Part shown: positions 38,285 to 41,379 of the stretch, piece by piece | Layout: every line of letters begins with the position of its first letter | Position numbering within the stretch: the first letter of the stretch is position 1 | From: Henriciella sp. AS95 | Lineage (GTDB): Bacteria > Pseudomonadota > Alphaproteobacteria > Caulobacterales > Hyphomonadaceae | Direction of reading: 5' to 3' | Length of the DNA: 64,000 nt | NCBI RefSeq assembly: GCF_038900055.1 | Contig: NZ_JBBMQM010000001.1 | Span: 744,001 to 808,000, forward strand | Notes under the pieces: generated by a model | What the model saw: the letters and a program-made list of their open reading frames with translations, nothing else | What the model was told of the DNA's origin: nothing | Databases searched by the model: none | Made by a program: the position numbers and the translations under genes

Positions 38285-38614
38285 CTATCCAAAGAGCCCA
38301 TTCAACGACCCCACAGCATAGATTGGCACGAGCACAAGAAGCGTGATGATTGCATTGCCTGCGTAAAAGAAGGCACGCCCCCGGCGCATCAGCAAAAAAA
38401 TGATCGAAGTTACGAAGGCGATCAATGGAATAAGGTGAGCCAATGCAAAAATGAAGAGCGGAACGATAGCGTCCGAGTATCCGATGGCAAAGACATCCTC
38501 TCGTCCAGTCGACCAAAAGGTCGCGACGCAGATTATTCCGAAGATCGTTAGAACATAGAGAATGAACCTCTGCAGCGCGACGATCGGGTTGTCTCGCCCC
38601 GCCACGGCGATCAA
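38285..38614 (-). CDS. Small membrane protein between dnaN and recF, hypothetical
   Basis: A 109-residue open frame with three hydrophobic helices (about 16-34, 46-74 and 84-104). The start would be TTG overlapping the dnaN stop (TTGA), or GTG at 38605, so it would be translationally coupled. Composition is lower than its neighbours (26 of 60 G+C at 38401-38460). No family recognised. Hydrophobic periodicity and coupling favour coding, but the non-ATG start leaves doubt. Confidence 0.5.
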   Translation of the reverse strand: MIAVAGRDNPIVALQRFILYVLTIFGIICVATFWSTGREDVFAIGYSDAIVPLFIFALAHLIPLIAFVTSIIFLLMRRGRAFFYAGNAIITLLVLVPIYAVGSLNGLFG

Positions 38615-39732
38615 ACCCGAAGCGGCATCAGCACATAGCGTGTGGCAAGATCGCCCGGATCGAGGATCAGCGCTGGTGAGGCCGGGTCGTTCAGCATGAA
38701 TTCGGCGTCTTCGGCTTCGATCTGCGCTGTGACATCGAGGAGGTATTTGGCGTTGAAGCCGATTTCCATCGCGTCATCGCTATAGTCGCATTCGATCTCT
38801 TCATGGCCCTGGCCGGTTTCCGCGGAGTTCACAGCGAGCGTGACCTTGCCGTCGGCCAGCGACAGCTTCACAGAGCGTGAGCGTTCGGCGGACACGGTGG
38901 AGACCCGGTCAACGGCGGCTTCGAAGGATTTGTTGTCGATGACGAGGCGCTTGTCATTGCCCTTCGGAATGACGCGCTGATAGTCCGGGAAGGAGCCGTC
39001 GATCAGCTTGGACGTCAGCACGGCGCGGCCGGCCTGGAAGACGATCTTGGTCTCGGATACGGAAATGGTGACATCGCCGTCGACCGCATCGATGAGGCGG
39101 CGCACTTCGCCGATTGCCTTACGCGGGACGATCACGCCATCAAGCCCTTCAGAGCCTTTCGGGGCCGGCGCGTCAGCGAGCGCGAGCCGGTGGCCATCCG
39201 TGGCCACGGCGCGCAGGACTTTCGCGCCCTTGTCGCCATCGGCCGCGTGCAGATAGACGCCGTTCAGATAATACCGCGTCTCTTCGGTCGAGATGGCAAA
39301 ACGCGTCTTGTCGATCAGGCGGCGAAGATCTGCCGCGTCGACATCAAAAGTCGTCGCGCTGTCGTCGCCGGTCATGGTCTGGAAGTCGGTGGCCGGCAGG
39401 GTTGGCAGCTCGAACTTGGCGCGCCCGGAGCGGATCGTCAGGCGGCGGTTTTCCGGGTTGAGTTCAAGCTCGACATCTGCGCCAGCGGGCAGCTTGCGGA
39501 TAACGTCGAACAGGGTGCCGGCAGGCGCTGTGATCGACCCTTCGCTGTCGATCTTCGCATCGGCGCTGTCGACGGCCTCGATATCAAGGTCTGTTGCGAC
39601 CAGCGTCAGTTCGCTGCCCTTGGCTTCCATCAGGACGTTCGACAGGATCGGAATCGTGTTGCGCCGCTCCACCACGTTCTGCACGTGGGACAGTGCGTTC
39701 AACAGATCACTTCGTTCAATCGTCAGCTTCAT
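38611..39732 (-). CDS. dnaN: DNA polymerase III subunit beta (sliding clamp)
   Basis: A 373-residue three-domain clamp. Recognisable segments are the N-terminal LLNALSHVQNVVERRNTIPILSN, ATDGHRLALADAP in the second domain, and the C-terminal RYVLMPLRV; the MPLRV end forms part of the peptide-binding pocket for polymerase and MutS clamp-binding motifs. It lies downstream of dnaA on the same strand after a 177-base gap. Confidence 0.97.
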   Translation of the reverse strand: MKLTIERSDLLNALSHVQNVVERRNTIPILSNVLMEAKGSELTLVATDLDIEAVDSADAKIDSEGSITAPAGTLFDVIRKLPAGADVELELNPENRRLTIRSGRAKFELPTLPATDFQTMTGDDSATTFDVDAADLRRLIDKTRFAISTEETRYYLNGVYLHAADGDKGAKVLRAVATDGHRLALADAPAPKGSEGLDGVIVPRKAIGEVRRLIDAVDGDVTISVSETKIVFQAGRAVLTSKLIDGSFPDYQRVIPKGNDKRLVIDNKSFEAAVDRVSTVSAERSRSVKLSLADGKVTLAVNSAETGQGHEEIECDYSDDAMEIGFNAKYLLDVTAQIEAEDAEFMLNDPASPALILDPGDLATRYVLMPLRV

Positions 39733-39909: not shown

Positions 39910-41379
39910 TCAGCCATTTCCCTCGGACTGGATTTCGAAGACCATCTCCCGGACACGTTCAACATCACGAACCATGTCGGCATCGGTCTGCATGGCCTTG
40001 CGGATCTTGCGCCATGCATGAAGCACCGTGGTGTGATCCTTCTTGGCAAAGGCACGCGCAATCTGCGGCAGGGATTTGTCCGTCATTTCACGGCACAGAT
40101 ACATGGCGATCTGGCGCGGGTGACAGACCTGACGGGCCTTCTTCGCGCTCTCAATCTCCGGCTTGGAGATATCGAAAATGCGCATGGCGGCACGTTTGAT
40201 ATTGTCCAGCGTCGGGGCCTGATATTCGCCCTGCTGACGGCGAAGCACCGTAACCAGCATGTCCATATCCGGTTCGACATCGCCGTAGCCGGTTTCGGTC
40301 TGCAGGCTCCACAGGACACCGCACAGCTCACGGCCCGGGCCACGAACGGTCGCGACGATCCGGTCGATCATCTCTTCGCTCAGCTCGAAGTTTGGCTGAT
40401 CCTTGCGGATGAGAGCGGCATGGAGGCGCACAATCTCACGGCGCATTTCCTGATCGGGCAGACCCACTTCAGCCGTTGCCGCACCGAGCAGCTCACCGCG
40501 CATACGCTGTGAGAAGCCTTTCAGGTCTCCGGGGGCTTCGTCAGCCGTCAGGAGAACACGGCCACCGCTCTTTGTGACGGACCGGATGTTCGCAAAGAAT
40601 GCCTCATCGGTCTTCTTCTTGCCGGCGATCCACTGCAGGTCATCGATCAGCAGGAGATCATTGTCGCGAACTTGCGCTTTCAGATTGCGGGTGTCGCCCT
40701 CGCGAGCCCCATCAACGAAGGCCGTCATGAATTCTTCGGCCGTCATATAGGTCACCCGGCGTCCGTCAGCGCGGGCGGCGATGGCGAATTCGATCGCACG
40801 GAGAATGTGCGTCTTGCCAGTGCCCTGGCGGCCATAAATGAGCGCGACGTCGGCCCGCAGCATGGTGCCTTCAACGAGCCGCTCAGCCAGACGTACGGCA
40901 CACTTGTTTGTGTCGCCCACGATCAGCGTCTCGAAGGTCATCGAGCCGTCGCTTGGTGCGGTGACTTCGGCGGCTTCGTCGGCGTCGTTGCCGATTGCCC
41001 GTTTTGCTTCCTGTTCCGCGGACCACAGATCACCTGCGAGCTCGCGTGTTTCTGCCGGTATGTCCTTCCAGCAGGCGATTTCGAGGGCACGGCCCTTCGG
41101 GTCAGTCTTGCGCCAGACTCGTTTCAACATCGGGCGGTGATTGCCACTGATGCGGTCAAAGGTGAGTTGGTCACGCGCAGCGATGAGAACAGAATTGTTA
41201 ACCTCAGCCACGAAGCGCAGGTCTTTGATCCACTTGTTGTAGTCGTCGGGTGACGCGATCTGCCGGGCGTCATCCAGAACAGCGTTCCAAATGGCCAGAC
41301 CCTGATGCTTGTCGATAACTTTACCCTCGGCTTTTTTGCCTTCTCTACCCCAGTTGCCAGATTCTTCTTGGCGCCCCAT
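39910..41379 (-). CDS. dnaA: Chromosomal replication initiator DnaA, divergent
   Basis: A 489-residue AAA+ initiator. Domain I lies at about 27-105. Walker A is GRQGTGKT (183-190), Walker B LLLIDD followed by LQWIAGK, and sensor 1 LLTADEAP. The DNA-binding domain IV is well conserved, with RQIAMYLCREMTDKSLPQIA and KDHTTVLHAWRKI. By eye, the box VII arginine finger (SRFGWGL in E. coli) is replaced by Glu296 in RMRGELLGA. The sensor-2 arginine (GALNR) aligns with Ser358 in CGVLWSL. GGGAAG precedes the ATG. Context (rpsT, dnaN) leaves no doubt about identity. Confidence 0.93.
   Translation of the reverse strand: MGRQEESGNWGREGKKAEGKVIDKHQGLAIWNAVLDDARQIASPDDYNKWIKDLRFVAEVNNSVLIAARDQLTFDRISGNHRPMLKRVWRKTDPKGRALEIACWKDIPAETRELAGDLWSAEQEAKRAIGNDADEAAEVTAPSDGSMTFETLIVGDTNKCAVRLAERLVEGTMLRADVALIYGRQGTGKTHILRAIEFAIAARADGRRVTYMTAEEFMTAFVDGAREGDTRNLKAQVRDNDLLLIDDLQWIAGKKKTDEAFFANIRSVTKSGGRVLLTADEAPGDLKGFSQRMRGELLGAATAEVGLPDQEMRREIVRLHAALIRKDQPNFELSEEMIDRIVATVRGPGRELCGVLWSLQTETGYGDVEPDMDMLVTVLRRQQGEYQAPTLDNIKRAAMRIFDISKPEIESAKKARQVCHPRQIAMYLCREMTDKSLPQIARAFAKKDHTTVLHAWRKIRKAMQTDADMVRDVERVREMVFEIQSEGNG

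Follow-up and report, generated by a model that had tools for sequence, protein, structure and literature searches.

The contact between an arginine finger and ATP is the textbook route by which ATP drives assembly of the DnaA filament. The window analysed here, a 64,000-nucleotide stretch of the Henriciella sp. AS95 genome, carries a dnaA gene that had been predicted from its sequence to lack both the canonical finger and the sensor-2 arginine. This raises the question of which of these residues are really gone, whether the loss is peculiar to this organism, and how ATP could still govern a DnaA without its finger.

The DnaA protein and its box VII

The dnaA gene is found on the minus strand at positions 39910..41379 as an intact frame of 489 aa, in a locus with the gene order rpsT, dnaA, dnaN, small unassigned frame, recF. 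Its product matched the Pfam models DnaA_N, Bac_DnaA and Bac_DnaA_C, each above the cut-off, with domains I, III (AAA+) and IV in order. The match to TIGR00362 covered model positions 1–436 of 437 and scored 325.2 bits, below the cut-off of 343.9; the best match was likewise below the cut-off in 64 of the 101 genomes of the order. An AlphaFold monomer (mean pLDDT 88.8, pTM 0.64) matched domain III of a solved DnaA (2z4r_A; Z 28.4, rmsd 1.8, 239 aligned) as well as 1j1v_A (Z 18.3, rmsd 1.0, 94 aligned), and the modelled fold of domains III and IV is the DnaA fold. By its domains, Walker motifs, sensor-2 arginine and fold, the protein is predicted to be a bacterial replication initiator that binds DnaA boxes and opens the origin.

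A search of the rest of the genome for a second DnaA or an Hda protein, as proposed with the original prediction, yielded no second full-length DnaA and did yield an HdaA-like protein (described below). Profile searches of the genome found no finger-bearing backup DnaA: PF00308 gave one match and TIGR00362 two, the second covering only domain IV (≈70 residues). The window dnaA encodes the ordinary DnaA of this organism, the only full-length copy found. The domain-IV-only match, at G000:C1:2735235-2735438, is located within a 159-aa open frame and may be an HdaB-like protein.

Residues were assigned by aligning the protein and the DnaAs of relatives with E. coli MG1655 DnaA, in which residues 178, 236, 281, 285 and 334 are K, D, R, R and R, respectively. 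Box VII of the window protein, RMRGELLGA (residues 292–300, 40480..40506, minus strand), overlaps a helix comprising residues 291–298 in the AlphaFold model. The alignment ran across box VII without a gap and placed E. coli R285 opposite Glu296 (codon 40492..40494, minus strand). The box VII arginine of four solved DnaA chains paired with Glu296 as well in phmmer alignments, and in an alignment of the window DnaA with 49 of 80 named loci, the Glu296 column was almost invariantly Arg. The canonical arginine finger is indeed missing, as had been predicted. Two arginines precede Glu296 within the box: Arg292 (40504..40506, minus strand), which aligns with E. coli box VII Arg281, and Arg294 (40498..40500, minus strand), which aligns with E. 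coli Lys283.

The sensor-2 arginine, by contrast with the prediction, is present. E. coli R334, the R of NVRELEGAL, corresponds to window Arg350 (GPGRELCGVL; codon 40330..40332, minus strand), a column that was invariant in the same alignment with named loci. R334 and its C. crescentus counterpart R357 are given as the sensor 2 residue of box VIII in a report on the latter organism (PMC3193534). The R of EGALNR had been mistaken for sensor 2; the residue thought to have replaced it, Ser358 (40306..40308, minus strand), pairs with E. coli R342. Walker A Lys189 (40813..40815, minus strand) and Walker B Asp246-Asp247 (40639..40644, minus strand) are in place, which, together with the domain IV match, agrees with the prediction that these elements were kept.

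The window protein therefore resembles E. coli DnaA in its domain architecture, Walker A and B motifs, sensor-2 arginine and the adjacency of dnaA and dnaN, but differs from it at Arg285 (Glu296), AID-2 Leu290 (Ala301) and Arg342 (Ser358). Where a finger-dependent ATP-DnaA of the E. coli type has its box VII finger, this protein has Glu296.

Distribution of the loss

The order was sampled with 101 genomes (that of the window and 100 relatives) in five families, f1–f5, of which f1 is the family of the window. DnaA counts refer to 100 proteins; one genome (G044) had no full DnaA match and was dropped, and an extra copy in another (L003 in G007) was not counted. In f1, the finger column was Glu in 54 proteins, with Asp and Gln in two each and Val and Ile in one each. 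All 10 f2 proteins had His. In f3, five proteins had Val, two Ile and one each Gln, Lys and Asp; in f4, three had Tyr, two each Leu and Val, and one each His, Arg and Ile. All 10 f5 proteins had Arg. The finger arginine was consequently absent from 89 of the 90 DnaAs of f1–f4, the single exception being the f4 genome G071, and within the genus of the window all 29 DnaAs had Glu. The suspicion that the loss might be shared by the lineage was correct: on these alignments, it is lineage-wide in the sample and not a local oddity.

Outside the order, the finger arginine was present in 78 of 80 DnaAs of other Alphaproteobacteria and in 80 of 80 of a mixed, diverse set of named DnaAs. The 80 class genomes were a non-random selection from 285 outside the order (30 best-scoring, 30 low-scoring and 20 from the listed rest), in which the low-scoring picks passed over genomes with only short matches and one sequence, L223, was a partial frame. 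Both class exceptions, L219 (G143) and L225 (G156), had Leu in the finger column, and L225 also had His at sensor 2. These two small genomes look like two more independent cases of finger loss among Alphaproteobacteria outside the order.

The Walker A Lys, both Walker B Asp residues and the sensor-2 Arg were each present in all 100 DnaAs counted for the order. Because sensor 2 is retained throughout, the earlier argument that its loss would alter regulatory inactivation falls. In seven columns, a single residue accounted for ≥90% of the class and for no more than 25% of f1–f4, and among them the finger was the most thoroughly lost (1% kept). In the E. coli R342 column, 95% of the 80 class proteins had a basic residue, but no protein of f1–f4 or f5 did; as judged from these columns, the change at Ser358 is real. 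Other replacements in f1 were Ala or Val in the AID-2 Leu290 column (51/60), loss of box VII Arg281 (18/60) and Lys in the domain IV Arg399 column (41/60). The B-motif Arg245 column was non-Arg in all but one row of f1–f4, which says little, since it is also unconserved in the class (Ser in 52/80).

A FastTree phylogeny based on all kept columns grouped f1–f4 in one clade with a support of 99. In a quick IQ-TREE run without the box VII columns, the base was not resolved and the long branch L225 fell inside. A single loss in f1–f4 is compatible with these trees but not proven by them. Since His occurs in all 10 f2 proteins and in one f4 species, a one-base change from Arg to His was likely the first step; the site would then have drifted and, in f1, mostly settled on Glu. 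The Arg of G071 could represent either a return or a survival. The excluded copy L003 (G007:C13) is a second, canonical DnaA in a member of the genus and branches outside the alphaproteobacterial rows; the G007 assembly is listed at 3% contamination, and L003 is likely a contaminant.

HdaA and the remaining role of ATP

In E. coli, a review describes Arg285 as essential for ATP-DnaA-specific origin complexes, intrinsic ATPase activity and DDAH, but not for RIDA, and Arg334 as important for intrinsic ATPase activity, DDAH and RIDA, although functional initiation complexes can form without it (PMC5742627). Since R334 is kept and R285 is lost, the lineage appears to retain what RIDA needs and to have dropped what is needed for sensing of ATP between DnaA subunits.

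HdaA is the partner that switches DnaA off. The genome encodes a divergent HdaA-like protein (G000:C1:2028365-2028985), matched by both HdaA and Hda models with scores below their cut-offs. It has the finger arginine and, near its N-terminus, the sequence QLKLDF, which is like a clamp-binding motif. The clamp itself, the docking partner of Hda in RIDA, is encoded next to dnaA by dnaN (38611..39732, minus strand; TIGR00663, 323.9 bits, above the cut-off). The genome thus has an AAA+ protein of the Hda type that carries the box VII finger and is predicted to stimulate hydrolysis of DnaA-bound ATP. In C. crescentus, HdaA is reported to require its finger, R145 (PMC3836487).

HdaA matches were obtained from 99 of the 101 genomes, the exceptions being G024 and G066. 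The 58 proteins fetched from these 99 genomes all had Arg at the finger position of box VII, that of R153 in E. coli Hda; 54 of them came from genomes with a fingerless DnaA and four from genomes with a finger-bearing DnaA. The Walker Lys position of HdaA, however, differed between families. Of the 34 f1 proteins, 25 had L, V or I there and the other nine K or R, as against K in 9/9 of f2, 5/6 of f3, 5/5 of f4 and 4/4 of f5. In much of f1, DnaA and HdaA have thus lost opposite halves of an AAA+ interface.

With a probability of about 0.6, we read these observations as a lineage-wide type of DnaA that has dispensed with its trans-acting finger, in which HdaA would still turn over the ATP while DnaA–DnaA sensing of ATP through residue 285 would be gone. 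DnaA would still bind ATP, and clamp-bound HdaA would still switch it off (RIDA), HdaA lending its finger to the ATP of DnaA and DnaA supplying sensor 2. The contact at residue 285, through which each DnaA reads its neighbour's ATP, would be lost, probably together with finger-dependent intrinsic hydrolysis. Assembly would then depend on the occupancy of DnaA boxes, on other contacts between subunits and on the conformation that ATP sets within each monomer, and would take place at an origin with weak boxes and a CtrA site.

Several observations sit less comfortably with this reading. G071 has Arg at the finger site, G024 and G066 lack an HdaA match, f2 keeps Arg in the 281 column in 9 of 10 proteins and in the 283 column in all 10, and a weak-box origin does not track the finger (see below). 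The altered Walker A motif of HdaA need not be new, because E. coli Hda itself has Arg at the Walker Lys position. A stricter version, which we offer as possible rather than probable, is that DnaA (ATP site and sensor 2) and HdaA (finger, with its nucleotide site lost in much of f1) form complementary halves of one ATPase, such that DnaA-bound ATP would be hydrolysed only across the DnaA–HdaA interface. If so, ATP would never be read across the DnaA–DnaA interface, and this order, Caulobacter relatives included, would build its initiation complex by some means other than the classical ATP-finger filament.

The most serious alternative to a DnaA without a trans finger is that another arginine has taken over, with Arg294, Arg292 or Arg266 reaching the neighbour's ATP, so that sensing between DnaA subunits persists. 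The window protein has both Arg292 and Arg294, and the 283 column is Arg in all f2 proteins, as noted above. Arg294, which the original prediction had named as one residue that might be found in the finger position, is nevertheless a weak candidate and no gain, being the ordinary residue of its column, with R or K in 68 of the 80 class proteins and in 74 of the 80 named ones. Within the genus, 14 of 29 DnaAs have Arg at both 281 and 283, and 15 of 29 lack both box VII arginines, while 12 of the 100 DnaAs of the order have no Arg anywhere in columns 276 to 293. Another candidate is Arg266 (40582..40584, minus strand; E. coli N255 column), which is fixed in f1 (60/60) and could be a substitute contact there. 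This column is basic in 68% of f1–f4 and 100% of f1, but it is Thr in 7 of 10 f2 proteins, and Arg266 can therefore not explain f2. On balance, a substitute finger seems unlikely. An arginine found at this position in ≈1% of the class and in every f1 protein is a candidate compensating residue.

ATP-independent initiation was one of the readings suggested with the original prediction; initiation would then largely do without ATP, and DnaA would simply be a scaffold that binds DNA. The residue on which the ATP specificity of E. coli origin complexes depends is indeed lost, and E. coli DnaA(R285A) is reported to serve if provided with a suitable origin (PMC6727663). A protein indifferent to nucleotide would not be expected to hold the Walker A Lys, the Walker B residues and sensor 2 constant throughout the order, however, and reports from C. 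crescentus describe ATP dependence: ATP-bound DnaA matters for initiation and partition, and expression of a sensor-2 mutant leads to over-initiation (PMC3193534, PMC9945499, PMC6399470). We consider ATP-independent initiation improbable, the more so of the two alternatives. Finally, a sequencing error, a pseudogene or a misaligned box VII, to which the low TIGR00362 score might point, can be dismissed, given the open frame of 489 aa, the gap-free alignment with E. coli, the identical pairing with solved DnaAs, and relatives that carry the same replacement, including Glu in every DnaA of the genus.

Like the original prediction, which knew of no precedent, we found no description of a DnaA without a finger in this lineage in the full-text literature searched (titles and the starts of abstracts, with subscription papers mostly outside); as far as searched, the loss is undescribed. 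A fingerless DnaA has a laboratory counterpart in E. coli DnaA(R285A) with oriC-allADP, which is reported to serve where ATP-selective sites are absent from the origin (PMC6727663); that protein is a mutant, whereas in this lineage the fingerless state is the natural one. The lineage, probably including the model Caulobacter, has swapped the finger for residues as unlike one another as Glu, His, Val and Tyr while keeping the ATP site and, apparently, the inactivation route. This makes the need of finger contacts for origin opening directly testable, and sets the part of ATP in triggering assembly apart from its part as a clock that RIDA reads.

The hemE region and comparison with Caulobacter

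In this genome, dnaA is located at 784 kb and hemE at 372 kb. It is likely that dnaA is not at the origin, and that a candidate Caulobacter-type origin lies beside hemE, ≈400 kb from dnaA (L338:8907-9182, with a CtrA site and weak DnaA boxes). As read by eye from the translations, hemE lies between a group of parA, parB and gid-like genes and a maf-aroE-coaE-dnaQ-like run. Upstream of hemE, the gap contains a TTAA-N7-TTAA CtrA site and several sites two mismatches from the E. coli box, including TCCACA and TCCCCA types. No DnaA box within one mismatch of the E. coli box was found in 20 kb of this hemE region.

C. crescentus DnaA and HdaA share with the window system a hemE-side origin with a CtrA site and an HdaA with a finger, and belong to the same order if f2 is the Caulobacteraceae. 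This is probably the case, because the f2 genome G093 was the only one of the 101 to exceed the HdaA cut-off; one control genome that does not bear the name of this group exceeded it as well. The f2 proteins differ from those of the window in having His rather than Glu in the finger column, and in keeping the HdaA Walker Lys that the window organism has lost.

The C. crescentus origin is reported to contain G-boxes and weak W-boxes (PMC4468827, PMC4285127), and in E. coli, an origin without ATP-selective sites is reported to suppress the lethality of DnaA(R285A) (PMC6727663). The idea that weak boxes accompany finger loss was rejected: there were three boxes within one mismatch in five genomes of f5, which has the finger, and two in five genomes of the fingerless f2. 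Over the whole genome, TTATCCACA occurred 11 times (21 for its reversed control) and TGATCCACA 36 times (1 for its reversed control); these counts were set aside as evidence, the controls being poor. An exact consensus DnaA box was found upstream of hemE in four of 31 genomes. TCCACA cores were more frequent, with four in the 1 kb upstream of hemE in the genome of the window, and, over the 31 genomes, 71 in 1 kb each upstream of hemE compared to 11 in 1 kb each of hemE itself. This enrichment fits an origin at hemE, but does not track the finger.
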